Source of the DNA: Bacteroidales bacterium
GTDB taxonomy: Bacteria; Bacteroidota; Bacteroidia; Bacteroidales; F082
DNA: 64,000 nucleotides
Direction: 5' to 3'
NCBI GenBank assembly: GCA_017477425.1
Contig: JAFUVT010000007.1
Span: forward strand, 1-64,000
Positions within the stretch are counted from its first letter, which is position 1; each line of letters opens with the position of its first letter. Made by a program: the position numbers and the translations under genes. Of this stretch, positions 82 to 13,201 are shown in pieces. Under the pieces are notes generated by a model. It ran no database searches. It saw only the letters and a program-made list of their open reading frames with translations, and had not been told where the DNA came from.

Positions 82-1411
82 TAGTACTGTTGCGTTAATT
101 ATTAAACATTAGAATAAAGTTGGTTCATTGACATCTTGGTTTTGATTGAGAAGGTCGTTTTGCGGATTGGTGAGCAGGGTTGTGATGTCGGTTTTTGAGA
201 GTGCCGAGACACCAAGCAGGGTTGCGACTTCGGTGATGGTGTAGGGGCAGCCCTTTATCGAGGCCTTGATTCTCGCCACTATCAGGTAGGTGCAGATGGC
301 GGTCCAAAGGTGTGTCTTTACGGCGTTTTCCGTGTGTCCCCAGAAGGACTTGACGGTCAGGTTTTGCTTGATCCACTTGAAGAAAGTCTCTATCTGCCAG
401 CGGTTCCGATACAGGTTGGCCACGTCAAGAGGCCCAACATTGGTGAGGTTGGTGATGAAAACCAGCACCTCGCTGCTGTCAGGGTCGATGAACTCTACCA
501 TCCTGAAGTTCTCGGGGTAGAGTTTGCTCGGCTTGTAGCCCGTCAGACGGATGGTGCGGTCACTGACGAGTCCTGTGGAACGGTCGATGTTGTAATTGAC
601 ATCGACCACCTCGTAGCGCATGTTGCTCTTCGCTCGCGTGACCCAATAGGCATCGTGCTTGCTGATGTTGTAGAGTGCCGCGAAGTCCACGTAAGCCTTG
701 TCCATCACATAGATTGCCCATGGGATTATCTCGATGACATCCAGCATGTTGCTGTCGTGCCATTTGCCGTGGGTGACATGGATGAAGGCGGGGATGCTGC
801 CCCTCAGATCAAGGACGGCGTGCATCTTGACAGCTCCTCGGTCGTACTTGCCGTAAGCCCACATCATCAGTTTGATGCTGCAAGACACTGTTGTGGAGTC
901 GATGGCGAAAATCTCCCAACCGGGGAGGTCAACATCGGGGACGGGCTCTTTTGCATAGAGTGGCCTGACCAAACCTATCAGCACAAGCCCGAGTTCCTCC
1001 CAGATGCGGCAGTCACGGTCGCGGTTCGCTCTCGAAAGCGAGGAGACATTCACCGTCTGGCGGAACCCCAACGGGTATAGGATCCTCTGATGTGCCTTGA
1101 GGCACAGGCAGATGTCGCGGATGGAGTCGCAGGCCGTCAGTTGGCCGAACATCAGATGGAGAAACAGGTTGTAACAACTCAACTCGCGAACGTGATAGTC
1201 GCCGTTGTACTTGCGCACAATGCGGTCGAACTCGTATCTCGGGATAAAATCGGCCACTTGGGCGAAAACATACCTACCTTTGTTCATAATATTGCAGCAT
1301 TAGGCCGCAAAATTACTTCTCAATTTCAAATCAAAAAATCAAAGAACGCTTATAATATACTATATATCAATTATTTACAAAGAAATTTCAAAAATTAACG
1401 CAACACTAATA
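82..1411 (-). mobile_element. Complete IS4-type insertion sequence with 9-bp target duplication
   Basis: The ends are 19-bp inverted repeats matching at 17 of 19 positions: 82-100 reads TAGTACTGTTGCGTTAATT and the complement of 1393-1411 reads TATTAGTGTTGCGTTAATT. The element is flanked directly by the 9-bp direct repeat GTCAATCCT at 73-81 and 1412-1420, the expected target-site duplication. It contains one intact transposase gene on the minus strand. The 1330-bp length is normal for IS4-group elements. It sits between a terminator and the first gene of the kinase/DGR cluster, about 40 bp before that start codon. Confidence 0.9.
109..1287 (-). CDS. IS4-family transposase (DUF4372 + DDE domain)
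   Basis: This 392-residue protein catalyses cut-and-paste transposition of the surrounding element. The N-terminal 70 or so residues (FAQVADFIPRYEFDRIV and the following SIRDI) are the DUF4372 type found at the front of many Bacteroidota IS4-like transposases. The catalytic region follows: FAIDSTTVS carries the first Asp, VMDKAYVDF the second, and YRNRWQIETFFKWIKQ matches the Y-R-E-K signature with the catalytic Glu. The frame is intact and full length, so the copy could be active. It points away from the DGR cluster. Confidence 0.93.
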   Translation of the reverse strand: MNKGRYVFAQVADFIPRYEFDRIVRKYNGDYHVRELSCYNLFLHLMFGQLTACDSIRDICLCLKAHQRILYPLGFRQTVNVSSLSRANRDRDCRIWEELGLVLIGLVRPLYAKEPVPDVDLPGWEIFAIDSTTVSCSIKLMMWAYGKYDRGAVKMHAVLDLRGSIPAFIHVTHGKWHDSNMLDVIEIIPWAIYVMDKAYVDFAALYNISKHDAYWVTRAKSNMRYEVVDVNYNIDRSTGLVSDRTIRLTGYKPSKLYPENFRMVEFIDPDSSEVLVFITNLTNVGPLDVANLYRNRWQIETFFKWIKQNLTVKSFWGHTENAVKTHLWTAICTYLIVARIKASIKGCPYTITEVATLLGVSALSKTDITTLLTNPQNDLLNQNQDVNEPTLF

Positions 1412-1450: not shown

Positions 1451-2674
1451 ATGAACGACGAAACCATTTTTGACCCGAAAGAGGTCAACGAAGAAAAACA
1501 AGGCAACATGCCTATCGACAACGAAGAAACGGTGTTGGGAGAATACCAGAATCCGACCGAAAACACCGAGCCACAAAGCAAGAAAAGACGTGACCTGAAG
1601 ACGGCGGGCATTGCTGGTGCGGCTGGCGTGGCAGGTGCCGCCATTGGCGTGCTGACACCTGTAAACGTTTTCCCTGTATCGCCCGAAGACGGCAACGAAA
1701 TTGATGAGATTGGAGAGCCTGAAGCAGCTCTTTCTTCATCAAGCCATCTCCAAGGCCACGACATGCCTGTGGCCACGGGTGTGAACGATTCGATGAGTTT
1801 CAACCAAGCCTTTGCCGCTGCAAGGCAGGAGGTGGGCGCAGGCGGCATCTTTGTGTGGCATGGGCATACCTACGGCACCTACTACGCCAACGAATGGAAT
1901 GCCATGTCGCCAGAGGAGCACGACCAGTACTGGGCAGATGTGCACCACACCACTTCGAATATCCATTACGAGCCAACGCCCGATCCGGATCCAATACCTA
2001 CTCCTGAACCCGATCCAGATCCCGAACCCACACCAACGTCGAATCCCCAAGCGCTCAACCTGAACGAGGAAGACATCATAGAGGCCTACGACCTCGACGG
2101 CGATGGACAAGTTGACGCAGTCGTGGTGGATGCCAACGGCAACGACATTCCCGATGCCATCCTTGACACCACAGGCGACGGCCACTTCGATACACTCGTC
2201 CTTGATATTGAAGAAGACCAAGCTGGAGCAGTGGTGGAAATCGATGGCGTGAATATCAGTAGCTCGGCGGAACCCAATCTGGTGGAGCCTGTTGACCCGG
2301 TGGAAGGCAACACGCTTGTGCTCAACGAAAGCGACGTGTATGAAGCCGCTGACATGAGCGGCGACGGACAGGTTGACACCCTCATCGTGGATGCCGACGG
2401 CAACGACAACCTCGACCTCGTCCTTGACACCACGGGCAACGGTCAGTTTGACACATTGATTCTCGACCCGGGCGTTGATGAACAAGGTAACCTCGTCATC
2501 GATGAAAACAACGTCAGCAGCATCGACGGCGTCATCCTCACCAACGACGCGCCGTTGGACAACCCCGAAAACGAGTTCATCGCCGAGAGCCCCGACATTG
2601 ACGACACGGCCTACGTCGCGCACGACCCCGACATCACCATCGACAACCACATGGATATGAACGACTTTGCGTAA
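1451..2674 (+). CDS. Acidic protein with glycine-zipper segment and DxDGDG repeats
   Basis: This 407-residue protein has no family I can name. Residues 1-48 are acidic and polar and include EETVLGEY. A small-residue hydrophobic stretch (TAGIAGAAGVAGAAIGVL) follows, possibly a membrane or glycine-zipper segment. A block around GGIFVWHGHTYGTYYANEW comes next, then a Pro-Asp-Glu linker. The last third holds two long repeats with DLDGDGQVDAVVVDANGND-type loops, like calcium-binding thrombospondin-3 or dockerin repeats. It is the first gene of the cluster and lies 5 bp before the FHA gene, so it is probably co-transcribed. A role as substrate or scaffold of the kinases is inference. Confidence 0.8.
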   Translation: MNDETIFDPKEVNEEKQGNMPIDNEETVLGEYQNPTENTEPQSKKRRDLKTAGIAGAAGVAGAAIGVLTPVNVFPVSPEDGNEIDEIGEPEAALSSSSHLQGHDMPVATGVNDSMSFNQAFAAARQEVGAGGIFVWHGHTYGTYYANEWNAMSPEEHDQYWADVHHTTSNIHYEPTPDPDPIPTPEPDPDPEPTPTSNPQALNLNEEDIIEAYDLDGDGQVDAVVVDANGNDIPDAILDTTGDGHFDTLVLDIEEDQAGAVVEIDGVNISSSAEPNLVEPVDPVEGNTLVLNESDVYEAADMSGDGQVDTLIVDADGNDNLDLVLDTTGNGQFDTLILDPGVDEQGNLVIDENNVSSIDGVILTNDAPLDNPENEFIAESPDIDDTAYVAHDPDITIDNHMDMNDFA

Positions 2675-2679
2675 TCGCT

Positions 2680-3234
2680 ATGGCCAAGACATTGAAAATC
2701 ACCAAGGCCTGTCCCAAGTGCGGCACGGCTATGCCCATCCTCATCGCTGAGGCCGACCTGGGCAAGACGAAGCAGGTGGCCTGCCCCAAGTGTGGCGCCC
2801 ACTACAACATTCCGATTCCTATGACCTACGCCTCGAAGTTTGAGAGCGACCCGACCTTGGGCGGCAACGAGCCTGACCGCTCGTTGCTGCTCGAGGTGAT
2901 GGCCAACGCCACTACTGCATACCAAACTTTCAACCTGACTTCCGACTACTACACCATTGGCCGCAAAAACAGCAGTGGACCGGAGCATCGTCCCGACGTG
3001 GAGGTGGAGACCACCGACAAGAAGATGAGCCGTAAACATGCAGCCATTCGCAAGAAAGGCAAGACGGGCTTCACGCTGAAAGACCTCGGCAGTAAGAATG
3101 GCGTTTGGCTGAACGGAAACAAAATGGATGCTGAAGAAGAGGTCTATCTCTCCGACGGCGACCAAATTCGTCTCGGTGAAACGACCTTCCGTGTGAACAT
3201 TGCCGAACTATCAGATAACGATTTGACTTGTTGA
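2680..3234 (+). CDS. Zinc-ribbon/FHA domain protein
   Basis: This 184-residue cytoplasmic protein starts with a CxxC...CxxC zinc ribbon (C11, C14, C35, C38). An FHA domain fills the C-terminal half: IGRK around residue 94, SRKHAAI around 117-123 and GSKNGVWLNG at 137-146. FHA domains bind phosphothreonine peptides, so this is a likely reader of threonines phosphorylated by the neighbouring kinases. There is no signal peptide or membrane segment. It follows the previous gene by 5 bp and is followed by a palindromic repeat, then kinase 1. Confidence 0.92.
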   Translation: MAKTLKITKACPKCGTAMPILIAEADLGKTKQVACPKCGAHYNIPIPMTYASKFESDPTLGGNEPDRSLLLEVMANATTAYQTFNLTSDYYTIGRKNSSGPEHRPDVEVETTDKKMSRKHAAIRKKGKTGFTLKDLGSKNGVWLNGNKMDAEEEVYLSDGDQIRLGETTFRVNIAELSDNDLTC

Positions 3235-3242
3235 ATTTCCAT

Positions 3243-3270
3243 ATAGAGACGTGCCATGGCGCGTCTCTAT
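3243..3270. repeat. 28-bp REP-like palindrome upstream of kinase 1
   Basis: ATAGAGACG and its complement CGTCTCTAT enclose GCCATGGC, giving a near-perfect palindrome. From memory, sequences of this kind are common dispersed repeats in Bacteroidales. It contains an ATG at 3256 in frame with the kinase, which makes that start doubtful and favours the ATG at 3301. Confidence 0.7.
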
Positions 3271-3300
3271 AACAATTCAGCCATCAAAATTCAACGACAA

Positions 3301-5355
3301 ATGACCCAAGAAGAGTTTTTCAATCGTTACACCTACAGCCCAAGCCGTGACCGCATTGGTGGCGGCGGCTTTGGTACAGTGTATAAGGCCTACGACAACG
3401 TGCTGCATCGCGAGGTGGCCATCAAGGTCAGCGAGGTGAAGGTTACCGCTGATGGCAAGAAGACTTTCTCACTGAAAGACGAGTTTGAGGCTTTGGCTCA
3501 TGTGCCCAAGCACCCCAACATCGCCAATTATGAGGAGTTCTATTCCTTCGAGATGCCCACAGGAATCAATGACCTTGCTGTCATGCAATATTATCCCGAC
3601 GGCAATCTCGGCAATGCCATTAAGCAAGGCCTGACGGCTGAGCAAAAGGAAGACATCGCCACCCAACTGTTGGAAGGCATTGACTTCCTGCACAAGCACA
3701 AGGTGGTGCACCGCGACCTGAAGCCTGGCAACATCCTCATCGTGAAACACGGTGGTCGCATTATCCCGCTTATCACCGACTTCGGTCTGAGCAAGGCCGC
3801 AGGCGTGGCGGACGGCAGCGTGTTCAGCAACAGCTTTGGTGCAGGCACACCGCGTTATAGCTCGCCGGAGCAGTTGCAAGGCAAGCCCTTGCGCCTCAAC
3901 ACCGACCTTTGGTCTTATGGAGCCATCCTCTACGAGTTGTTCACCAGCGAACAATTGTTCAGTGCAGGCAGTGGCGCGGCCAACACCGCCCAGGCCGACA
4001 TGGAGATCTACAACAAGATTGTGAACGGCAACGTGCAGAACCTTGGCCGAATGCCCGAAAAATGGCGGCGTGTGGCGGAGCGATGCTTGGTGGTGGATGC
4101 CACGAAGCGTGCCAAGGACGCGGCGGAGCTGTTTGGCATTATCCGGGGTGATGACGACGAGACCGAGGTGACAGACGGCGCCAAAGGAGGGGCTGCTCCC
4201 AAACAGCCTGTACAACCGCCGAAAGAAAAACCTGAAACGAAGCCGTCCGATACTTCCGATAAGCCTAAGACGGCCCTTTGGATAGCCCTTGGGGCTGTAG
4301 CGGTAGCTATTCTCTTGTTTTTGCTTCTGAAGCCCAGACCTCAATCTCAACCTACCAGCCCCGATACCCTTGCCTACGAAGCCTGCCAGACCGTGGCCGA
4401 CTACCGTGCCTACATGCGCGACTACGGGCGCAACGCCTTGCACTACAACGACGCCAAGGCTTTTGTGGAACAACACGAAGCCGACAGCACCGCCAAGGCG
4501 CAACAGGCCGTCGCCCTCGCCCAGGCTCAGCAGCAGGCCGAGGCCGAAGCGCAAGCCCAAGCCGAGGCGGAGAAGAAGGAAGAAGCCGCCTACAAGAAAT
4601 GCACCACCATTGCCGCTTGCGACAGCTATTTGAAGACTTACCCCAAAGGCAAGTATGTGGAAGAGGTGAAGGCCAAGAAAGCCGATTTGGAGGAAAAAGC
4701 CAAGCAAGAAGCCCTGGCCAAAGCCGAAGCCGAACAAAAAGGCGGCAACGGCAGCGCTGGCGGCCACGACTACGTAGACCTCGGCCTGCCGAGCGGCACG
4801 TTGTGGGCCACCTGCAACATAGGCGCGAGCAAGCCCGAAGGCTATGGCAACTACTACGCATGGGGCGAGACCTCCACCAAGAGCACCTACAACTGGAGCA
4901 CCTACAAATACGCCAACGGTGCCTACGACAAGCTGACCAAGTATTGCAACAAGAGCGACTACGGCAACAACGGCTTCACCGACAACCTGACGGCCTTGCA
5001 AAGTGGCGACGATCCCGCAGCTTCCAACTGGGGCAGCGGATGGCGCACACCGAGCAAGGCGCAGTGGGACGAGCTGTTGAGCAACACCACCAACCAGTGG
5101 ACGACCAAAAACGGCGTGAAAGGCCGGCAGTTCACCTCGAAGAAGAACGGCCAGACGCTCTTCCTGCCCGCCGCTGGCTACCGTTGGGACTCGGAGCTCC
5201 TCAGCGCTGGCTCCAGCGGTGACTACTGGTCGAGGTCGCTCGACACCGACTACCCGAGCAGCGCGTGGTACCTCAACTTCGGCTCGGACGACTGCCGCAT
5301 GAACATCAGCAACCGCGACCTCGGCTTCAGTGTGCGCCCTGTCCGTCAGAACTAA
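3301..5355 (+). CDS. Receptor-like Ser/Thr kinase with DGR-diversified lectin domain (kinase 1)
   Basis: The protein has 684 residues from ATG 3301; an in-frame ATG at 3256 lies inside a palindrome. Residues 1-275 form a complete Hanks-type kinase: GGGGFGTV loop, VAIK Lys42, HRDLKPGN at 137-144, DFG at 160-162 and SSPEQ in the activation segment. A membrane span (ALWIALGAVAVAILLFLLL, about 325-343) is followed by an Ala/Glu/Gln-rich coiled coil. From about 489 comes a FISUMP/DUF1566-like domain of the C-type-lectin/FGE fold (YVDLGLPSGTLWATCNIGAS). Its last 64 residues, 620-683, are variable repeat 1. By topology the kinase faces the cytoplasm and the hypervariable binding face the periplasm. 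The ligand is unknown. Confidence 0.9.
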   Translation: MTQEEFFNRYTYSPSRDRIGGGGFGTVYKAYDNVLHREVAIKVSEVKVTADGKKTFSLKDEFEALAHVPKHPNIANYEEFYSFEMPTGINDLAVMQYYPDGNLGNAIKQGLTAEQKEDIATQLLEGIDFLHKHKVVHRDLKPGNILIVKHGGRIIPLITDFGLSKAAGVADGSVFSNSFGAGTPRYSSPEQLQGKPLRLNTDLWSYGAILYELFTSEQLFSAGSGAANTAQADMEIYNKIVNGNVQNLGRMPEKWRRVAERCLVVDATKRAKDAAELFGIIRGDDDETEVTDGAKGGAAPKQPVQPPKEKPETKPSDTSDKPKTALWIALGAVAVAILLFLLLKPRPQSQPTSPDTLAYEACQTVADYRAYMRDYGRNALHYNDAKAFVEQHEADSTAKAQQAVALAQAQQQAEAEAQAQAEAEKKEEAAYKKCTTIAACDSYLKTYPKGKYVEEVKAKKADLEEKAKQEALAKAEAEQKGGNGSAGGHDYVDLGLPSGTLWATCNIGASKPEGYGNYYAWGETSTKSTYNWSTYKYANGAYDKLTKYCNKSDYGNNGFTDNLTALQSGDDPAASNWGSGWRTPSKAQWDELLSNTTNQWTTKNGVKGRQFTSKKNGQTLFLPAAGYRWDSELLSAGSSGDYWSRSLDTDYPSSAWYLNFGSDDCRMNISNRDLGFSVRPVRQN
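5158..5349 (+). repeat. DGR variable repeat VR1 (in kinase 1)
   Basis: These 192 bp match the template repeat at 6191-6382 except for 20 substitutions, all at template adenines. Sixteen of the 19 AAC codons are changed (to TAC, AGC, GAC, CTC, GGC, CGC or ATC) and three are unchanged (codons 40, 49 and 52). No other position differs. The repeat ends with the identical 27-bp block expected to contain the initiation-of-mutagenic-homology site; identity stops three codons before the kinase stop codon is complete. Confidence 0.97.
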
Positions 5356-5385
5356 TCCTAGTTCCGTTCGCATACGGGCAAGGGA

Positions 5386-5451
5386 GCAAAACTTGTCGGG
5401 CGTGGGCGCCCGCGGCAGCGGGCACGAAGGCCCACGTGCGGCAAGTTTTGC
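5386..5451. other. Large hairpin downstream of VR1
   Basis: Arms at 5386-5407 and 5430-5451 (22 nt each) pair with 19 Watson-Crick pairs, two wobbles and one mismatch. Inside sits a second perfect hairpin, GCCCGC-GGCA-GCGGGC, at 5408-5423. A small CCGT...ACGG stem precedes it, starting at about 5363. There is no T tract, so a terminator is unlikely. In the Bordetella phage DGR a hairpin or cruciform just 3' of the VR is needed for efficient retrohoming; this has the right position. VR2 has a counterpart at 12289-12356. Confidence 0.85.
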
Positions 5452-5498
5452 ACAGGTTGAGATTTTGAATATTAGATCTTGAATTTGAAATACGTAAG

Positions 5499-6038
5499 AT
5501 GTCACAACTGAAAGAAATACTGCAAATAGAAATCGAGCGCAACACGTTGGAACAATGCACGGCAATCCACCTGTTCCGCGAAGGTACCTTCTATCGCGCC
5601 TACGAATGGAGCGCGTGGCTATGCCAGCGTTTTTTTCCTGAACTGAAGGTCACCCACCGGCTACTGAAAAGCGGTGACGACATCGTATTCGTTGGCTTCC
5701 CGCTCACCAGTATCGACCGCTACACGCCCCAAGGTGCAACCATTGCACCCACAGGTGAAAACAGCATCGACATCATCCTGCCAGCCGACGTGTTGCCCGC
5801 TGATGCCAAAACAGAGATGCTTGCAGGGGACTTCACCAACTGGAAACAGAGTCAACCATTGACAGAGGCATCGAAGAAGAAAGTAGAGGAGAGCAGGGTT
5901 GAGGCCGCAAGGAACGCGCACCCGCGCCTTACCGACGTGATGCTCCGTATTCTCGCCTTCCCCATCGAGCAACGCTCACCCATGGAGTGCATGGTGTTTC
6001 TTGCCGATATGAAAAAACAAATCTCTGAAATCATTTGA
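5499..6038 (+). CDS. MutS-domain-I-like DGR accessory protein
   Basis: This 179-residue protein sits between VR1 and the template repeat, where DGRs carry their accessory gene. It does not look like the helical Avd protein. Residues 20-75 resemble the N-terminal domain I of MutS: TAIHLFREGTFYRAYEWSAWL corresponds to the MutS FYE region and GFPLTSIDRYTP to the MutS block before the first helix pair. From memory, MutS-like proteins are a known alternative DGR accessory class. The ATPase and clamp domains of MutS are absent. The C-terminal 60 residues look helical and basic. It probably assists cDNA priming or template binding with the reverse transcriptase. Confidence 0.72.
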   Translation: MSQLKEILQIEIERNTLEQCTAIHLFREGTFYRAYEWSAWLCQRFFPELKVTHRLLKSGDDIVFVGFPLTSIDRYTPQGATIAPTGENSIDIILPADVLPADAKTEMLAGDFTNWKQSQPLTEASKKKVEESRVEAARNAHPRLTDVMLRILAFPIEQRSPMECMVFLADMKKQISEII

Positions 6039-6190
6039 ACACTACAACGGAACATATTAGGGTAAGTTCACAGGCGGTCGGCCCACGGCTTTGCGCGTCG
6101 CGGGAAAGCACCGATGAGGCTGTTGGCTTGCAAAGGCATTCCTTCGGCCTCGAAAACAAACAGACCGCTGACGCTAACGTGAGGTGGCAC

Positions 6191-6382
6191 CTCTTCCTGC
6201 CCGCCGCTGGCAACCGTTGGGACTCGGAGCTCAACAACGCTGGCTCCAACGGTAACTACTGGTCGAGGTCGCTCAACACCGACAACCCGAACAACGCGTG
6301 GAACCTCAACTTCAACTCGGACGACTGCAACATGAACAACAACAACCGCAACAACGGCTTCAGTGTGCGCCCTGTCCGTCAG
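6191..6382 (+). repeat. DGR template repeat (TR)
   Basis: This 192-bp repeat lies just 5' of the reverse transcriptase core. Read in the frame of the targets it has 64 codons, 19 of them AAC. AAC mutated at both adenines gives NNC, which encodes 15 amino acids and never a stop. Both variable repeats match it outside adenines, except for one edge base in VR2. The final 27 bp (6356-6382) are the conserved 3' block. The frame is open and continuous with the reverse transcriptase reading frame. Confidence 0.97.
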
Positions 6383-6385
6383 CAC

Positions 6386-7702
6386 TTGCCTGAAAACTCC
6401 GTTTTCCGCCTGACGCGAGAACGGCTCCTCGCCGATCTCCGTCAGGCCTATTATGACGCACGGCGCCACAAGCGCAACAGACCCTATCAATTGCGCTTCG
6501 AGGCCAACCTCGAACAGAATTTGAACGAGTTGTGCGATATGCTTTGTTCGCGCACATACGCGCCTTTGCCGTCCACCTGCTTCATCATCACCGAACCCAA
6601 GAAACGCGAAGTGTTTGCGGCGCATTTCCGCGACCGCATCGTGCATCACCTTTATTATAATTACACCCACCAACTCTTTGAACGCACCTTCATCACCGAT
6701 AGTTATAGCTGCATCAAAAAACGAGGCACGCACTACGGTATCAACCGCCTCGAACAGCACATTCGTGGGGAGAGCCAGAACTACACGGTTCCATGTTATG
6801 TGATGAAGATGGACATCCGTGGCTACTTCATGCACATTAACCGAAAGAGGCTTCTCGAAATATGCGTTGCCACGCTAGACAAAATGGCCGCGCACCGTGT
6901 TTCGCGTCATCGACTGGAAACCTGGCAGGAACGCATCGACATGGGTTTTGTCAAGTATCTTACAGAGGTCATTGTCATGCAAAATCCCATTGAGAACTGC
7001 CACATGAGAGGCAGTGAAACCGACTGGGATGGTTTGCCTTCCGACAAAAGTTTGTTCCATTCGCCCGAGGGGTGCGGCCTGCCCATCGGCAACCTCACGT
7101 CGCAGCTTTTCAGCAACGTCTATCTCAACGTTCTCGACCAGTTCATGAAACGAGAGCTGAAATGCAAGCACTACGGCCGTTATGTTGATGACTTCTATGT
7201 GGTCAGTGCCGACAAGGAATGGCTGCTTTCTATAGTGCCGAAAGTGAGGGAAGCCTTGTCAGAGCGTCTGGGTCTCGAATTCCACGACGGCAAGCTGCAA
7301 CTGACCTCCGTGTGGCATGGCACCGAGTTTCTCGGCCACTGGCTGAAGCCGCACCGAATATATCTTTCGCGCAGCTGCGTCGGGCGCATCGACAGAAAAC
7401 TTGACCTCTTGGCTTCGGGAAGTCCCGAAAAATGGTCCGCTGCCCTCAATTCCTATTGCGGACTCATGTCGCATTGGAACAACTATAACCTAAGGAAAAA
7501 ACTTCTAACCCATCATCACGACTTCACCCGTATTGGTATGTTCAACCACGGTATCACCAAATTCAACGAATGCCAACTTGAAATACACGAAATTCCAGCA
7601 TCTGGAAGACGCGACTATCTTAACCGTAGGTCATTGACCTACGGAGACTCGTGTCGACGCAAAGCCCCGAAGGGGCGACAGCAACGCAGGCAGGCGGTGT
7701 GA
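6386..7702 (+). CDS. DGR reverse transcriptase
   Basis: This enzyme copies TR RNA into adenine-mutagenised cDNA that replaces the variable repeats. Visible motifs are KMDIRGYF (motif A Asp), PIGNLTSQLFSN (the IGxxxSQ signature that sets DGR enzymes apart from most group II intron and retron enzymes) and YVDDFYVV (catalytic YxDD, 7181-7192). A thumb-like region follows. The start is uncertain: the frame is open from TTG 6035, which overlaps the accessory gene, and runs through the whole TR; an ATG lies at 6332 inside the TR. I give TTG 6386, directly after the TR, leaving about 438 residues. The last 25 or so residues are encoded by two palindromic repeats and are probably not functional. Confidence 0.93.
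   Translation: MPENSVFRLTRERLLADLRQAYYDARRHKRNRPYQLRFEANLEQNLNELCDMLCSRTYAPLPSTCFIITEPKKREVFAAHFRDRIVHHLYYNYTHQLFERTFITDSYSCIKKRGTHYGINRLEQHIRGESQNYTVPCYVMKMDIRGYFMHINRKRLLEICVATLDKMAAHRVSRHRLETWQERIDMGFVKYLTEVIVMQNPIENCHMRGSETDWDGLPSDKSLFHSPEGCGLPIGNLTSQLFSNVYLNVLDQFMKRELKCKHYGRYVDDFYVVSADKEWLLSIVPKVREALSERLGLEFHDGKLQLTSVWHGTEFLGHWLKPHRIYLSRSCVGRIDRKLDLLASGSPEKWSAALNSYCGLMSHWNNYNLRKKLLTHHHDFTRIGMFNHGITKFNECQLEIHEIPASGRRDYLNRRSLTYGDSCRRKAPKGRQQRRQAV
7624..7644. repeat. Palindromic repeat in the 3' end of the reverse transcriptase gene
   Basis: CCGTAGGTC and its exact complement are separated by ATT, giving a perfect 9-bp stem. It is translated as part of the reverse transcriptase tail (NRRSLTYG). 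Confidence 0.7.
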
Positions 7703-7712
7703 ATCCCTGCCG
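7663..7712 (+). repeat. Two-hairpin dispersed repeat, copy 1
   Basis: It begins with the palindrome AGCCCCGAAGGGGCGACA, then a GGCAGG...CCTGCC stem. It is about 90 percent identical over 50 bp to the copy at 12371-12420 and related to those at 12442-12487 and 20195-20242. The first part encodes the C-terminal residues of the reverse transcriptase reading frame. Confidence 0.8.
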
Positions 7713-7744
7713 AAAAAAACGAAAACAAATAAAACATCAACAAT

Positions 7745-8755
7745 ATGCAAGGAAAATCAATCAACGGTTTCACACTACAACGTCCGCTTGGTACGGGTGG
7801 CATGGCCGAAGTGTGGTATGCCGAAAACAAAATCGGGAAGAAAGCGGCGGTGAAACTGCTGCTGCCCAAATTGTGCGACGACGACAACGTGAAGTCGCGC
7901 TTCCTCACCGAAGCCAAGGTGATGGTGGAACTCGACCACCCTAACATCCGCCAGGTGTATGACTACGGCGACATCGACGGACGTCCCGCCATCGTCATGG
8001 AATACTTAGACGGCGAAGACCTGAAAACCCGCCTGAAACGAGGCCAACGTTTCAAGGAAGCCGAACTGGAACGCTGGTGGAACCAACTCGTTTCGGCCTT
8101 GAACTACACGCACCAGAAAGGTATCGTCCACCGCGACATCAAGCCGGGCAACATCTTTGTGGACCGCGAAGGCAACATCAAGTTGTTGGATTTCGGCATC
8201 GCCAAGGTGCGCGAGAGCATCAGCAAGACACAGACGGGCCAGAAACTCGGCACGCTGATGTATATGAGCCCTGAGCAGGTGAAGGACAGCAAGCACATTG
8301 ACTATCGCACGGATATTTACTCGCTTGCGGTGACTTTTGTTCACTTGATTACTGGCAAGCGCCCATACGATAGCGACACGAGCAGCGACTTTGAGATTAG
8401 TGAGCAAATCGTCTATAAGTCCTTGGATTTGAGTTCCGTTCCATCATTTTGGAGAGACATACTTTCGCCATATTTGAGGAAAGAGGCGCATGAGAGACCT
8501 GCTTTGCGGACAATTGAAAAACAGGATGCAGAAGAAACAACAATTGGTGATGCAATTCCCAAAGTTGAGAAACGAAGCAGTTATGAAGAAGAAAAAGAGA
8601 AAAGAAGACAAGCGAGGATGCGGCGGCAGCCTGAGTCTTATGAAGTTCAAGCAAATAATGATGAGTATTTAGGCACGAATAGTAAAAAATGGGGCTATTC
8701 TGTTATCCTTATTGTCATAATAATAATAATTAGAATCTTGTTAAGAATACTATAG
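7745..8755 (+). CDS. Membrane-anchored Ser/Thr kinase (kinase 3, not diversified)
   Basis: This 336-residue Hanks-type kinase has a GTGGMAEVWYAE loop, AVKLL Lys, HRDIKPGNIF, LDFGIAK and MSPEQVK. The catalytic domain ends near residue 255. A basic, charged linker with the sequence EETTIG follows, and a C-terminal hydrophobic tail (VILIVIIIIIRILLRIL) anchors it. It closely resembles the kinase domain of kinase 2 (both start MQGK.INGFTLQ/YTLQ) but lacks the lectin domain and variable repeat. It may be the constitutive partner or downstream kinase. It lies 42 bp after the reverse transcriptase and 15 bp before the phosphatase. Confidence 0.93.
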   Translation: MQGKSINGFTLQRPLGTGGMAEVWYAENKIGKKAAVKLLLPKLCDDDNVKSRFLTEAKVMVELDHPNIRQVYDYGDIDGRPAIVMEYLDGEDLKTRLKRGQRFKEAELERWWNQLVSALNYTHQKGIVHRDIKPGNIFVDREGNIKLLDFGIAKVRESISKTQTGQKLGTLMYMSPEQVKDSKHIDYRTDIYSLAVTFVHLITGKRPYDSDTSSDFEISEQIVYKSLDLSSVPSFWRDILSPYLRKEAHERPALRTIEKQDAEETTIGDAIPKVEKRSSYEEEKEKRRQARMRRQPESYEVQANNDEYLGTNSKKWGYSVILIVIIIIIRILLRIL

Positions 8756-8770
8756 CTAAAAGTAACCATT

Positions 8771-9940
8771 ATGAAAATCAATAACTTCACCCAACAAGGG
8801 AAACGCAGCAACAACGAAGACAGCCTCGGCACGAGTGTGGCCTTGCTCACCGTGTGTGACGGCATCGGCGGACATGTTTCGGGCGAGCGCGCCTCTGCCT
8901 TCGTGGTGGAAGCCATGATGAAGGCTTTCAACACGCCTCAGTCCATCGGCAAGATGGAAATACAGCAAGAATTGAATAAGGTGCAACAAGACCTCAACCA
9001 ACTTCTGGAAACCGAGCCAGAGTTGGAGAAGATGGGCACCACTTTCACGGGTGTTTTTCGCACGCCCGACGTGTGGTATGCCGCCCACATCGGCGACAGC
9101 CGCATCTACCTGTTCCGCCCCTCGGAGCTGAAACTATGGCACACTTGGGACCATTCGCTCGTCGGCGAACTGATGCGCACCAAGGAAATCACCACCGAGG
9201 CGGGCAGGTTCCATCCCATGTCGAACCGCATCTCTAAGGCCATCATCGCACAAAAGGATGGAAAGCTCGCCAGCGCGTCTATCGTGAAGATCGACGAACT
9301 GAAAGCAGGCGACATCTTCATGCTTTGCTCCGACGGAGTGGTGGAAGCATGGGGCGACCTCGAATTGGTCAAGCTCTTTTCCGACTCGAGCCTCAGTTTC
9401 GACCAGAAATGCGAGAAACTGGCAGAACAATGCAATGTCAAATCGAAGGACAACAACACGGCTATCATCGCAGAAATCGATGAAACGGACGCTTTCAGGT
9501 TCGGCACCAACGATGAACTGGAATGGACAACCTTCGCCGAGGTGGAAGCCGACTACGAAAAGTATGTCAAGGACAACGAGGAAACGAAAGAAGAACCCAA
9601 GGCGCAAGAAGAAATGTCTTCGCCAAAAGAGGAAGTTCCTGTTCCGGAGGCACCAGAGAGGCCTATGGAAATCGTCAACGAAAAACCAGCGCCTGTTTAC
9701 GGCCCGCCATCCATAATGAGAAACCACCACCAAAGCCGTCATTGCGGGCTTGGCCCGCAATCTCCCCAACGAAACGACCAAACCAAGCGAAAGAAACTCT
9801 CATATGTGCTTATTACATTGATAATCATTATAATAGCCGTTTTGCTTTTTGTGCCAAAAGGCTGTAGGAAAACCAAGGAAAAGCCAACATCCGAAACGCC
9901 TATGGAGCAAACCGAGCAACACACGCCATACAAATCCTAA
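8771..9940 (+). CDS. PP2C-type Ser/Thr phosphatase with C-terminal membrane anchor
   Basis: This 389-residue protein contains a full PP2C domain in about the first 235 residues: RSNNEDS, TVCDGIGGHVSGE (metal-binding Asp), AHIGDSRIYLF, LCSDGVVEAW and DNNTAIIAEI. PP2C enzymes remove phosphate from Ser/Thr and are the usual antagonists of Hanks-type kinases. An acidic, Pro-rich linker leads to a membrane segment at about 343-361 (SYVLITLIIIIIAVLLF), so the domain is probably tethered at the inner membrane facing the cytoplasm. A REP-like palindrome at 9741-9761 is translated within the linker. The short spacing to both neighbours supports one operon with the kinases. Confidence 0.93.
   Translation: MKINNFTQQGKRSNNEDSLGTSVALLTVCDGIGGHVSGERASAFVVEAMMKAFNTPQSIGKMEIQQELNKVQQDLNQLLETEPELEKMGTTFTGVFRTPDVWYAAHIGDSRIYLFRPSELKLWHTWDHSLVGELMRTKEITTEAGRFHPMSNRISKAIIAQKDGKLASASIVKIDELKAGDIFMLCSDGVVEAWGDLELVKLFSDSSLSFDQKCEKLAEQCNVKSKDNNTAIIAEIDETDAFRFGTNDELEWTTFAEVEADYEKYVKDNEETKEEPKAQEEMSSPKEEVPVPEAPERPMEIVNEKPAPVYGPPSIMRNHHQSRHCGLGPQSPQRNDQTKRKKLSYVLITLIIIIIAVLLFVPKGCRKTKEKPTSETPMEQTEQHTPYKS
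9741..9761. repeat. REP-like palindrome inside the phosphatase gene
   Basis: ATTGCGGGC and its exact complement GCCCGCAAT flank TTG. With its surroundings it resembles a widely dispersed bacterial intergenic repeat. Here it is in frame and encodes part of the linker before the membrane segment (CGLGPQSP). Confidence 0.65.
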
Positions 9941-9954
9941 TACACCATCCAACT

Positions 9955-10752
9955 ATGAAAAAACTTGCATTTTTGCTGCTCATGCTCGTTGTGGGTATGA
10001 CAGCCGAGGCTTACAACAACACCTACGCCCTCGTCATCGGTGTGGCCGATTACAAGAATTTCGTCCCTGGCGACGGCGATCTCAACTATACAGTCAATGA
10101 TGCCGTCAGTTTTGCCACGTTCCTGAAATCCAAGAAAGGCGGGAGCGTGCCTGCCACTAATGTCGTCCTCCTCACCAACGCGCAAGCTTCGAAGGAGAAC
10201 ATCATCGCCAAAGGCAAGGCCCTATTTGCTAAGGCGAAGAAAGACGACCGTGTCATTTTCTATTTCTCTGGCCACGGCGACAAGGGCTGTTTCTTGCCCT
10301 ACGATGCCACAACGATGGGCGGCAACTTGCTCTATTTCAGCGAGGTGAAATCCATCTTTAAGGCGGCGAAATGCAACACCAAACTTCTCTTCGCCGATGC
10401 TTGCTTTGCGGGTAGTATGAAGAAAGGTTTGGCCTCCAACACCAACCTACGCAAGAGCATCGAAAAGGGGCACAAGGATGCTTCCAACATGAACATTGCC
10501 GTGATGATGTCGTGCCAAGGCGACGAAACCTCGATGGAGATGGGCAGTCTGCGGCAAGGTTTGTTCACTTATTACCTCATGGAAGGCGTGGGCGGTGCGG
10601 CCAATCGCGACGGCAACAAGTACGTCACCATCCAGGAGTTGTATTACTATGTCTATCACAAGGTGCAAGATAAGGCGGCTTCTAGAGGGAAAAAGCAAAC
10701 GCCGGAACTGTTCGGCAAGTTCGATTTGAGATTGATAGTCGCAAAAGTGTAA
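9955..10752 (+). CDS. Secreted caspase-like (C14) peptidase
   Basis: This 265-residue protein has a clear signal peptide (KKLAFLLLMLVVGMTAEA, cleavage near residue 19). The rest is a caspase/metacaspase-type p20 fold: YALVIGVADYKN strand, FYFSGHGDKG with catalytic His107, and LLFADACFAGS with catalytic Cys150. A p10-like region follows (VMMSCQGDETSMEMG, QGLFTYYLMEG). No extra domain is present. Caspase-like enzymes act as effectors in bacterial conflict and cell-death systems; the signal peptide is unusual for that role and suggests a periplasmic or surface substrate. Its stop codon overlaps the start of kinase 2 by one base, so translation is probably coupled. Confidence 0.92.
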   Translation: MKKLAFLLLMLVVGMTAEAYNNTYALVIGVADYKNFVPGDGDLNYTVNDAVSFATFLKSKKGGSVPATNVVLLTNAQASKENIIAKGKALFAKAKKDDRVIFYFSGHGDKGCFLPYDATTMGGNLLYFSEVKSIFKAAKCNTKLLFADACFAGSMKKGLASNTNLRKSIEKGHKDASNMNIAVMMSCQGDETSMEMGSLRQGLFTYYLMEGVGGAANRDGNKYVTIQELYYYVYHKVQDKAASRGKKQTPELFGKFDLRLIVAKV

Positions 10753-12251
10753 TGGCCATGCAAGGAAAAACGATAAACGGATATACCCTGCAATACCGGC
10801 TTGGGAAAGGCGGTATGGCAGAAGTGTGGTATGCCGAAAATGCAATAGGCAAGAAAGCTGCCGTGAAACTGCTTTTCCCGCAGTTTTGCGATGATGAGAA
10901 CACGGTTGCCCGTTTCGAGAATGAGGCGAAGGTGATGGTGAAATTGGAGCATCCTTACATTAGGCAAGTCTATGACTATACAAAAATGCAAGACCGTCCA
11001 TGCATCATCATGGAATATTTGGAAGGGAATGACCTGAAGAGCCTCATGGAGAAAGGAACAGTGTTTAATGCTGTGGACTTGGTGAAATGGTGGAACCAAA
11101 TGACGCAAGCCCTGAACTATACGCACGCTATGGGTGTCGTCCATCGTGACATTAAACCTGCCAACGTTTTTGTTGACAAGCACGGCAACATCAAGCTACT
11201 TGACTTTGGCATCGCCAAAAATGAAGGGAATAATGCATACACTAAAACAGGGAAAGGACTTGGCACGCGCATCTACATGAGCCCCGAGCAGGTGAAAGAC
11301 CCGAAGCGTGTGGACTATCGCTCCGATTATTATTCGTTGGCGGTCACCTTTGTGCATCTCTTGACGGGCAAAAAGCCATACGATATGGACACGAGCAGCG
11401 AATTTGAAGTGATGATGAAAATCGTCAATACGCCTTTGGACATGTCGGGTGTGCCCGTTTCGTGGCAAGCCTTCTTGAAACCCTATCTGGAGAAAGAGCC
11501 CGACAAGCGACCACGCCTGAGTACTTTTGGGAATGTGGCGGCAGAACCTCAGCCCAAAAAGGAGGAAACTACCATTGGAGGCTTTGAGGAGACTATAATG
11601 GACGCTGGCCATGCCCAAGGCCACGACTACGTTGACCTTGGCCTTCCGAGCGGCACGCTGTGGGCCACCTGCAACATAGGTGCGAGTAAGCCTGAAGGCT
11701 ACGGCAATTACTATGCCTGGGGCGAGACCGATATTAAGAAGAACTACAATTGGGACACCTATAAGTATGCCAAGGGCAATTATGACAAGCTGACCAAGTA
11801 TTGCAACCAATCGCAATATGGTGACAAGCCCTCTAAAAATGGTATATGGTCAAAGCTTTTTGGCGAAGGCTTCACCGATAACTTGACAGAGTTGCAGATT
11901 GTCGACGACCCTGCCACATCCAACTGGGGCGGCGGCTGGCGCACGCCGAGCAAGGCGCAGTGGGATGAACTGTTGGCGAACACCACCCACCAGTGTACGA
12001 CCAAAAACGGCGTGGTAGGCCGCAAGTTCACCTCTAAGAGGAACGGCCAGACGCTCTTCCTGCCCGCCGCTGGCGGCCGTTGGGACTCGGAGCTCTACTA
12101 CGCTGGCTCCTACGGTGACTACTGGTCGAGGTCGCTCGACACCGGCAGCCCGGACCTCGCGTGGGGCCTCAACTTCATCTCGGACGACTGCTACATGTAC
12201 TACGGCAACCGCTACTACGGCTTCAGTGTGCGCCCTGTCCGTAAGAATTAA
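10752..12251 (+). CDS. Soluble Ser/Thr kinase with DGR-diversified lectin domain (kinase 2)
   Basis: This 499-residue protein has a complete Hanks-type kinase (GKGGMAEVWYAE, AVKLL, HRDIKPANVF, LDFGIAK, MSPEQVK). A linker of about 30 residues carries EETTIGGFEETIMD. From about residue 290 comes the same FISUMP/C-type-lectin-like domain as in kinase 1, ending in variable repeat 2 at residues 435-498. Unlike kinase 1 there is no hydrophobic segment, so the diversified surface should lie in the cytoplasm. Starts at ATG 10752 or 10758 are both possible; the second matches the start of kinase 3. The catalytic domain is more like kinase 3 than kinase 1, so the lectin domain has been shuffled between kinase types. 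Confidence 0.93.
   Translation: MAMQGKTINGYTLQYRLGKGGMAEVWYAENAIGKKAAVKLLFPQFCDDENTVARFENEAKVMVKLEHPYIRQVYDYTKMQDRPCIIMEYLEGNDLKSLMEKGTVFNAVDLVKWWNQMTQALNYTHAMGVVHRDIKPANVFVDKHGNIKLLDFGIAKNEGNNAYTKTGKGLGTRIYMSPEQVKDPKRVDYRSDYYSLAVTFVHLLTGKKPYDMDTSSEFEVMMKIVNTPLDMSGVPVSWQAFLKPYLEKEPDKRPRLSTFGNVAAEPQPKKEETTIGGFEETIMDAGHAQGHDYVDLGLPSGTLWATCNIGASKPEGYGNYYAWGETDIKKNYNWDTYKYAKGNYDKLTKYCNQSQYGDKPSKNGIWSKLFGEGFTDNLTELQIVDDPATSNWGGGWRTPSKAQWDELLANTTHQCTTKNGVVGRKFTSKRNGQTLFLPAAGGRWDSELYYAGSYGDYWSRSLDTGSPDLAWGLNFISDDCYMYYGNRYYGFSVRPVRKN
12054..12245 (+). repeat. DGR variable repeat VR2 (in kinase 2)
   Basis: This 192-bp repeat matches the template with 22 substitutions at template adenines: 17 of the 19 AAC codons are altered, plus one GAC to GGC. 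One C-to-A change falls in the last codon at the edge. Codons 40 and 52 stay AAC, as in VR1. It lies 5.9 kb downstream of the template on the same strand, so the element works on a remote target as well as the adjacent one. Confidence 0.97.
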
Positions 12252-12288: not shown

Positions 12289-12356
12289 GCTCAGGAGCAG
12301 TCGGGCGGGGCGCTCGCGGTAGCGAGCTACCCAGCCCCGCGCGGCTGCTCCTGAGC
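12289..12356. other. Large hairpin downstream of VR2
   Basis: Arms at 12289-12311 and 12334-12356 (23 nt) pair with one wobble and one mismatch. A perfect inner hairpin GCTCGC-GGTA-GCGAGC lies at 12312-12327. A small CCGT...ACGG stem precedes it. The plan is the same as the hairpin after VR1, but most stem bases differ with pairing preserved. There is no T tract. Confidence 0.85.
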
Positions 12357-12370
12357 GACGCGGGAGGCAT

Positions 12371-12420
12371 AGCCCCGTAGGGGCGACAGCAACATAGGCA
12401 GGCGGTGTAAACCCCTGCCG
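12371..12420 (+). repeat. Two-hairpin dispersed repeat, copy 2
   Basis: AGCCCCGTAGGGGCGACA is followed by a GGCAGG...CCTGCC stem. It lies in the 260-bp gap between kinase 2 and the second FHA gene, together with the VR2 hairpin and copy 3. Confidence 0.8.
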
Positions 12421-12441
12421 ATTGTCGCAAAAGTTAGAAAT

Positions 12442-12487
12442 AGCCCCGTAGGGGCGACATACCAATAAGCAGGCGACGTGAGTCCTG
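12442..12487 (+). repeat. Two-hairpin dispersed repeat, copy 3
   Basis: The same first palindrome as copy 2, followed by a GCAGG...CCTGC stem. The second half matches the copy at 20195-20242 better than copies 1 and 2, so there are two subtypes. Confidence 0.75.
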
Positions 12488-12511
12488 CACCACAAAAAAC
12501 AACACAACCAA

Positions 12512-13201
12512 ATGGAAATACAAATCAAAATCGGAAGAGAAGAATCGGGCGCGAATGCCATCACCGTGCCCAACACATGCAAAAAGGCCAGCCGCCATCA
12601 TGCCAAACTGATATGGAACGACGGCATTGTCACCATAGAGGACAACGAATCGGCCAACGGCACCTTCGTCAACGGCCAACGCATTGCCAAAAAGGAAGTG
12701 AAGGAAACCGACACGGTGTGGCTCGGCGGCATTGGCAACGATGTGTGCTACCAACTTGATCTCAAGAAAATCTTCGCCTCATGCCGTAAGGCGGAAGAAG
12801 GCCAGCGCACGGATTATTCCAAGGAGTTTGAAGACATCAAACGGGCGTATATGGATTACAAGGCAGAAGAAACCAAAATCAAGAATAGCCAAAACGTAAA
12901 AATGCGCATTGTGAATTTCATACCGATGATTGCTGGTGGTTTGTTCGCCCTGATTCCACTGGGCTTTATGCGAATTATCGGTCTGGCGATTGGTGTTGTC
13001 GTCACTTTGGTCTTGTTGTCACAAAGCAGTAAGCATGACATCAACGAAGAAATCACCGAACTGCAAATCAAGTACCAGCCACGCTACTCCTGCCCAAAAT
13101 GCCGCATGAAATATCCTTTCACCACGCATTGGAAGAAATTGGAGGCCGATGGCAAATGCCCGAATCCGAAATGCAATGCGGAGTTCGTGAAGAAGCAGTA
13201 A
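12512..13201 (+). CDS. FHA/transmembrane/zinc-ribbon protein
   Basis: This 229-residue protein has an N-terminal FHA domain (IGREESG at 7-13, KASRHHAKL around 25-33, ESANGTFVNG at 46-55). A charged helical region and a hydrophobic hairpin follow at about 131-160 (VNFIPMIAGGLFALIPLGF, IIGLAIGVVVTLVLL). A C-terminal zinc ribbon has C184, C187, C206 and C211. The parts mirror the FHA protein at 2680-3234 in reverse order with a membrane anchor added. It is a likely phosphothreonine reader at the membrane. It is the last gene of the cluster and is followed at once by a terminator. Confidence 0.9.
   Translation: MEIQIKIGREESGANAITVPNTCKKASRHHAKLIWNDGIVTIEDNESANGTFVNGQRIAKKEVKETDTVWLGGIGNDVCYQLDLKKIFASCRKAEEGQRTDYSKEFEDIKRAYMDYKAEETKIKNSQNVKMRIVNFIPMIAGGLFALIPLGFMRIIGLAIGVVVTLVLLSQSSKHDINEEITELQIKYQPRYSCPKCRMKYPFTTHWKKLEADGKCPNPKCNAEFVKKQ

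Follow-up and report, generated by a model that had tools for sequence, protein, structure and literature searches.

Can a bacterium turn targeted hypermutation on its own signalling enzymes? This question is raised by the first 64,000 nucleotides of contig JAFUVT010000007.1 from a Bacteroidales bacterium (assembly GCA_017477425.1), a stretch that we refer to as the window. It encodes two Ser/Thr protein kinases, K1 and K3, each ending in a variable repeat (VR), and between them a template repeat (TR) and a reverse transcriptase (RT) of the type found in diversity-generating retroelements (DGRs). A previous sequence-only reading had described the locus as a DGR that diversifies both kinases. 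Our analysis upheld the anatomy of that proposal through the RT, the accessory protein, the hairpins, a locus in a second family and the VRs of sister species, while active 'somatic' variation and ligand sensing, its further claims, stay putative. Given TR/VR differences that fall on template adenines and one edge base, we conclude that this is a DGR that probably rewrites the predicted sensor ends of the two kinases by adenine-mutagenic retrohoming. The features that carry this conclusion are the following.

3256-5355, plus strand: K1, a 699-residue Ser/Thr kinase (Pkinase, E value of 7e-45) with a membrane span at residues 340-358 and a C-terminal lectin-like domain that contains VR1
5158-5349, plus strand: VR1, the variable repeat ending K1; 20 mismatches to the TR, 20/20 at template adenines
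5386-5451, plus strand: hairpin 1, with a long outer stem, a 6-bp inner stem and a GGCA loop; folding z of -5.4; match to model R1 at 5394-5443, a training copy
5499-6038, plus strand: MutS-domain-I-like DGR accessory protein of MSL type, 179 residues
6191-6382, plus strand: TR, 192 bp with 19 AAC codons, sharing the reading frame of the downstream RT
6386-7702, plus strand: DGR-type RT with YVDD and LPIGNLTSQ motifs (RVT_1, E value of 8e-14)
10752-12251, plus strand: K3, a 499-residue Ser/Thr kinase (Pkinase, E value of 3e-49) with a C-terminal lectin-like domain that contains VR2
12054-12245, plus strand: VR2, the variable repeat ending K3; 23 mismatches to the TR, 22/23 at template adenines
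12289-12356, plus strand: hairpin 2, with a GGTA loop; folding z of -6.6; match to model R1 at 12299-12346, a training copy

Exact, ungapped comparisons over the 192 bp confirmed the mismatches at 20 and 22 adenines that had been reported earlier, and the sole exception is an edge base, TR position 6380, which is C in the TR and A in VR2. Adenines make up 49 of the 192 TR bases, and the hypergeometric probability of mismatches so confined to them is 4e-14 for VR1 and 2e-14 for VR2. That the two VRs terminate two Ser/Thr kinases was likewise borne out by the Pfam protein-kinase domains of K1 and K3. The TR contains exactly 19 AAC codons in a frame common to both kinases. Since the final C is retained by all 19 derived codons of both VRs, the earlier figure of about 2 × 10^22 variants from 19 NNC codons (15^19) is arithmetically right. 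In total, 31 of the 49 TR adenines were changed in at least one VR, 30 of the 38 inside AAC codons and 1 of the 11 outside them. The residues encoded by the changed AAC codons were mostly Tyr (11/33), Ser (6/33) and Asp (6/33), which are also the dominant residues in the reconstituted DGR of Bordetella phage BPP-1 (PMC12875486; this and all other papers are cited from the portions of their texts that were available). A DNA search of the window's own genome with positions 5100-5400 as the query (E ≤ 0.001) returned the TR, VR1 and VR2 only.

The RT reading frame is open and its catalytic YVDD motif is intact; LPIGNLTSQ matches GxxxSQ, which is presumably the motif of DGR-type RTs. The best solved relative of the protein was the 8ub7 series (E value of 4.5e-34), which we take to be an RT of DGR origin, and the alignment covers the (I/L)PIGxLTSQLF motif. 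Its start codon is uncertain, being either the TTG at 6386 or a codon within the TR; at a related Bacteroidales locus, L092, the position equivalent to this TTG is TTA, and the start may therefore lie inside the TR. TR and RT share one open frame (6191-7702) without an intervening stop. At its other end, the frame overruns the end conserved in relatives by about 44 codons and enters a copy of an interspersed repeat. This repeat, which carries a GCCCCG(A/T)AGGGGC palindrome, occupies positions 7656-7713, 12364-12421 and 12435-12492, and in the genus genome G021 a copy is also found upstream of the PP2C gene. Of the accessory proteins by which DGRs are recognized (Avd, HRDC or MSL), the cassette encodes one of MSL type: several comparisons, including Pfam, identified it as MutS-I-like with modest scores, and PMC10053308 names PF01624 as the MSL accessory of DGRs.

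Both hairpins of the window are intact, long and two-part, and one lies 3′ of each VR. We built a covariance model, R1, from five copies, namely those of VR1, VR2, K1 of G021, K1 of G020 and one VR of a second island, L090 (see below). In the window's own genome, where 150 of 565 first-look candidates were scored, R1 gave two matches, one after each VR, so that the inverted repeat stands 3′ of the VRs and not of the TR, as in a DGR (both matches being training copies). Across the genus, 32 matches were obtained in 22 of 99 genomes, and across the order 10 matches in 4 of 393 genomes, 4 of the 10 in genus genomes already counted. A lectin-like domain ends 36-78 bp upstream on the same strand in 36 of 37 R1 loci, a set that includes the five training copies; the exception is L150, a locus 164 bp away from the end of its contig, where no lectin-like match was obtained. 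One further R1 match outside these loci, G061:C4, also follows a lectin-like domain according to the coordinates of the K1 search. Changes on both sides of a base pair were found in 58 cells, compared with 16.7 in shuffled alignments (0/500 as high); the alignment itself had been made to follow the structure. Of 33 distinct rows, one of them a reverse-strand match, 18 have a loop that conforms to GRNA, which is the loop consensus of phage DGR hairpins, whose stem structure is needed for homing (PMC3240598). We rejected plain intrinsic terminators as an explanation because no T run directly follows the hairpins and compensatory changes preserve a single fold. The hairpin follows the kinase genes K1 and K3, their orthologues in G020, G021 and G066, and the kinase genes of L090, and it also follows non-kinase genes at L091, L092 and G084; the upstream stretch of the hairpin loci is too short for kinase genes to be counted among them.

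An RT scan of named genomes yielded nine relatives, one of which revealed a second island of the same kind. This locus, L090 (CAJOIT010000003.1), comes from a red deer metagenome-assembled genome of an uncultured Bacteroidales bacterium that belongs to a different family of the order (f82, as opposed to f1 for the window). It comprises a protein of the type encoded at 1451 in the window, FHA1, PP2C, two caspases, two kinases with VR domains, FHA2, the accessory gene, a TR and the RT. Compared with the island's own TR, the two kinase VRs had 24 of 25 and 24 of 26 mismatches at adenines; Pfam confirmed both kinases, and each has a membrane span between the kinase and the VR domain. Five other relatives have one VR target each, with 28/28 (L091), 30/34 (L092), 20/20 (L093), 22/24 (L094) and 19/20 (L098) mismatches at adenines, and no kinase match was found in or beside these five targets. 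A Pfam scan that covered L091, L092 and L094, leaving out L093 and L098, identified repeat or Ig-like domains in the targets of L091 and L094 and Lcl_C alone in that of L092. The TR and VR of L096 aligned poorly (31 of 51 mismatches at adenines), and L095 and L097, whose fetched stretches had no VR-like match, were left out of the comparison.

The cassettes of L090 (8777-11400) and L091 are about 91% identical in DNA, although the former has kinase targets and the latter a repeat-bearing non-kinase target. In the RT tree, L090 and L091 are sisters (100/100), while the nearest neighbour of the window's RT is L092 (83/93), a position that is not firm, and the label 'kinase target' requires at least two changes (2 kinase, 9 other and 12 unlabelled rows). 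Near-alike cassettes with different targets, together with these label changes, indicate that DGR cassettes seem to switch the kind of target. Three IMG/VR contigs (L135-L137), whose RTs are 52-59% relatives, likewise combine an RT with an accessory gene and a lectin-like target, and the RT group may therefore include elements of phages as well as of cells. A search of the viral_contigs set for the VR pattern found none. A phage-borne element was set aside as the principal explanation of the window, where the island consists of signalling genes kept in related bacterial genomes.

The remaining genes of the island and its left edge are given below; all membrane spans were derived from hydropathy.

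109-1287, minus strand: DDE transposase (DUF4372 and DDE_Tnp_1), at the left edge of the island
1451-2674, plus strand: 407-residue protein encoded by the gene that opens the conserved island; residues 53-76 may form a membrane stretch
2680-3234, plus strand: FHA1, a Zn-ribbon and FHA (phosphothreonine-binding) protein (Pfam FHA, E value of 2.8e-18)
7745-8755, plus strand: K2, a 336-residue Ser/Thr kinase with a C-terminal membrane span, in which no lectin-like domain was found
8771-9940, plus strand: PP2C-type Ser/Thr phosphatase with a membrane span (PP2C_2, 1.5e-13; Stp1 family, 2.7e-44, below cut-off)
9955-10752, plus strand: caspase-like peptidase C14 (Peptidase_C14, 1.3e-21), whose N-terminus looks signal-peptide-like by eye
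12512-13201, plus strand: FHA2, an FHA protein with a membrane span (FHA, 4.2e-14)

Both targets have the Hanks-type kinase fold with its Lys, HRD and DFG elements, and HRD and DFG are intact in each. The two differ in a respect absent from the sequence-only reading: K1 spans the membrane before its VR domain, whereas hydropathy detected no membrane span in K3. The lectin-like domain matches Lcl_C (2e-4 in K1) and FISUMP, both below the curated cut-offs; Lcl_C was matched by 14 of 15 lectin-like domains at E ≤ 0.01, with the window copies below cut-off. Fold searches with a model of K3 returned kinases as nearly all of the best 50 matches, driven by the kinase part, and a protein search with the VR domain listed at least 120 matches, taken up by multi-copy surface-type proteins. 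The presumed C-type-lectin fold of the VR domain takes its label from the names of the Lcl_C and FISUMP families. A Pfam scan of K1, K2 and K3 found no PASTA domain, and PknB-family scores were below cut-off; no MoxR, vWA, STAND or NACHT domain was found in the ten island proteins scanned, the wider neighbourhood being outside the scan. The protein at 1451-2674, whose position is kept in G021, G020 and the L090 genome, contains DxDGDG-like repeats and, in its N-terminal tail, the acidic-Thr motifs DETIFD and EETVLGE; with EETTIG and EETIMD, these are the candidate phosphothreonine motifs of the island. PADLOC matches, being generic similarities to kinases, caspases and RTs, were set aside.

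The sister species allowed the K1 genes to be compared. Between K1 of the window and K1 of G021, 14% of bases differ in the kinase domain, 13.4% in the lectin-like domain before the VR, 4.9% at VR sites other than template adenines and 53% at template adenines. Against the window's TR, 25 of 33 mismatches of the G021 K1 VR and 26 of 40 of the G020 K1 VR fall at adenines. G021 has a second VR gene (C2), which appears frame-broken. Within the 192 bp, its two VRs have five non-adenine differences from the window's TR in common, and 24 of the 27 sites at which they differ from each other are template adenines; it is therefore likely, judging from these patterns, that both were written from one G021 template. 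A TR search of the G021 genome did not reveal that template. A related RT split by a frameshift is located on G021 contig 6 (L044, 8886-10042), and its own TR is not the template of G021 K1. In G066, the match to the K1 orthologue (L026, 5779-7869) has one internal TAG and one TAA. An order-wide search with K3 at E ≤ 1e-120 returned its own genome only, a threshold too strict to speak of absence.

In three genomes of the genus, only the start of the accessory gene is left. In G069, its first 34 codons survive as a stub flanked by a kinase-lectin gene and PP2C, and longer 5′ stubs of 59 and 83 codons lie behind lectin-like genes in G068 and G040 (L028 2928-3029; L020 1173-1349; L023 1120-1368). 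Such stubs suggest that a cassette was once present beside these genes and was then lost. A 41-bp match (97.6%) to the RT gene in the G021 gap was considered as an RT remnant and not counted, as it lies within the interspersed repeat.

The sequence itself shows the TR/VR pattern, an RT and its accessory protein, hairpins that covary, and the island of a second genome; the following course of events would connect them. TR RNA would be copied by the error-prone RT with errors at adenines, and the resulting cDNA would replace VR1 or VR2, the hairpin marking the acceptor site, so that as many as 19 NNC codons in the lectin-like domain could change. Going a step further, the lectin-like domain might bind a ligand and control the output of the attached kinase, with periplasmic sensing by K1 and cytoplasmic sensing by K3; the FHA proteins could read the kinase output, PP2C could reset it and the caspase-like protein could execute the response. 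By analogy with how similar systems have been interpreted (PMC10907252, PMC8195603), this output would most plausibly be a defence or conflict response. Taken to its end, the idea describes an immune-receptor-like system, in which one template would remake the binding faces of a membrane and a soluble kinase that scan periplasm and cytoplasm, with an FHA/PP2C/caspase-like execution arm and a portable hairpin tag by which the retroelement could take over any gene with a lectin-like end; we put this fuller picture forward as a speculation, conceivable but tentative.

Several observations weigh against a DGR that diversifies kinases here. One assembly provides one VR state per gene. The 120 bp 3′ of the window's TR also fold stably (z of -6.7), into a different structure without an R1 match; the 120 bp 3′ of the L090 TR have no stable fold (z of 2.0). 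The presumed lectin-like domain had no convincing solved relative in sequence or profile searches against PDB. Related RTs are rare, occurring in 10 of 99 genus genomes at E ≤ 1e-40, and no kinase was found beside the RT in eight other genus RT stretches (L043-L050), which speaks against a fixed link. The 20-kb stretches taken from G021, G020 and G066 contain the island but no RT, and the signalling genes therefore need no local DGR. Finally, many lectin-like genes of the genus mismatch the window's TR mostly at adenines (duplicate stretches and matches spanning fewer than 110 template bases having been dropped), so that adenine bias across species is by itself a weak argument.

How far do other explanations account for the same data? 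It is scarcely credible that the VRs are ordinary paralogous lectin domains shaped by diversifying selection and gene conversion without retrohoming. Lectin-like domains of the genus do vary at the same sites, and 65 of 99 genus genomes match K1 (E ≤ 1e-60), mostly in the C-terminal domain alone among the matches listed; yet paralogy is already contradicted by mismatches at a single kind of template base, by an RT, an accessory protein and hairpins that lie in cis, and by the C kept in 19/19 variable codons of both VRs, where only 79 of 136 codons end in C upstream of VR1 in the K1 lectin-like domain. Chance similarity and plain gene conversion are ruled out by the same adenine confinement, the probabilities given above and the conserved third base. 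A fossil DGR, now silent or dying, whose formerly diversified kinases hold frozen VR alleles, is an improbable reading of the window. It draws on the sister species G021 and G020 without a cassette beside K1, on the accessory-gene stubs of G069, G068 and G040, and on the frameshift-split RT that G021 carries on another contig. Against it stand the window's open RT with its YVDD and both intact hairpins, and from the intact RT and the non-adenine mismatches, 0 in VR1 and 1 in VR2, little decay since the last homing event would follow.

Two further alternatives accept the DGR and dispute its meaning. The VR domain might set the substrate or docking choice of the kinase instead of sensing a ligand, as was put forward for cyanobacterial kinase-CLec proteins (PMC7517822). 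K3, without a detected span, would allow its domain to meet cytoplasmic proteins; in K1 and both L090 kinases, the span between the kinase and the VR domain would place the latter away from cytoplasmic substrates, and we consider this alternative unlikely. The cassette might also home into any lectin-like gene that has a hairpin, kinases being incidental. This possibility, which we regard as less likely than not, would fit the near-identical cassette of L091 with its target lacking a kinase domain, the hairpins behind the non-kinase targets of L091, L092 and G084, and the repeated label changes in the RT tree; but random capture would hardly be expected to yield two kinase-DGR loci in two families with the same signalling neighbours. 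A DGR that probably rewrites the predicted sensor ends of signalling kinases is the explanation that we retain.

DGR-diversified Ser/Thr kinases have already been published from cyanobacteria (PMC7517822), and our findings extend them to Bacteroidales. By the searches made, three aspects appear new: the occurrence of such a DGR in two families of Bacteroidales, within a kinase/phosphatase/FHA/caspase island, a single template that would serve a membrane kinase and a kinase without a detected span, and a hairpin family that would mark DGR targets. No title on kinase-targeting DGRs in Bacteroidota was among the literature matches listed, supplementary target tables being outside this scope, so that an earlier sighting is possible; two broad surveys (PMC8144416, PMC6642488) do not use the word 'kinase' in their main texts. 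The locus makes it testable whether bacterial targeted hypermutation acts on signalling and whether the cell then selects variants, and its kinases, phosphatase, FHA readers and caspase-like protein form a compact switch set open to genetic dissection. The near-identical cassettes of L090 and L091 constitute a natural experiment on DGR target change, and the hairpin model is a ready means of tagging DGR targets throughout a single genome sequence, whether they are present or former, and even where they are remote or orphaned.

Among known systems, the related Bacteroidales DGRs (L091-L094 and L098) have the RT group, the accessory protein, the order target-accessory-TR-RT and the adenine rule in common with the window, and differ from it in that neither the targets nor their surroundings gave a kinase match; pilins have been named as targets among related Bacteroidales DGRs (PMC12632263). 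The DGR of phage BPP-1 (PMC3240598, PMC12875486) likewise combines adenine-specific change, an AAC-rich template and a hairpin 3′ of the VR, and its GRNA loop recurs in about half of the hairpins described here. As far as the available text goes, phage DGR hairpins have a 7-10-bp stem 4-34 bp from the VR, whereas ours are much longer, two-part and placed 36-78 bp after the lectin-like domain; the accessory protein is of MSL type and not Avd, and the targets are kinases and not a tail fibre. Conflict systems of multicellular bacteria (PMC10907252, PMC7159879, PMC8195603) also join DGR-variable CLec/FGS domains to signalling or effector domains, and nearby peptidases, predicted cytoplasmic and periplasmic targets and decayed DGR loci are common to both. 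In contrast to what the available parts of these papers describe, the ten island proteins scanned lack MoxR, vWA, STAND and NACHT domains, and the switch would be a kinase/phosphatase pair. There is also a likeness to the cyanobacterial DGR kinases (PMC7517822), in which a kinase domain is joined to a CLec domain that holds the VR at the C-terminus, genomes have more than one gene of this kind and caspase-like domains belong to the wider picture. There, in the portion of the paper available, kinase-CLec genes are found both in DGR loci and dispersed, with caspase-like domains among the target N-termini, whereas the Bacteroidales window unites both targets in one FHA/PP2C/caspase island served by a MutS-I-like accessory protein.

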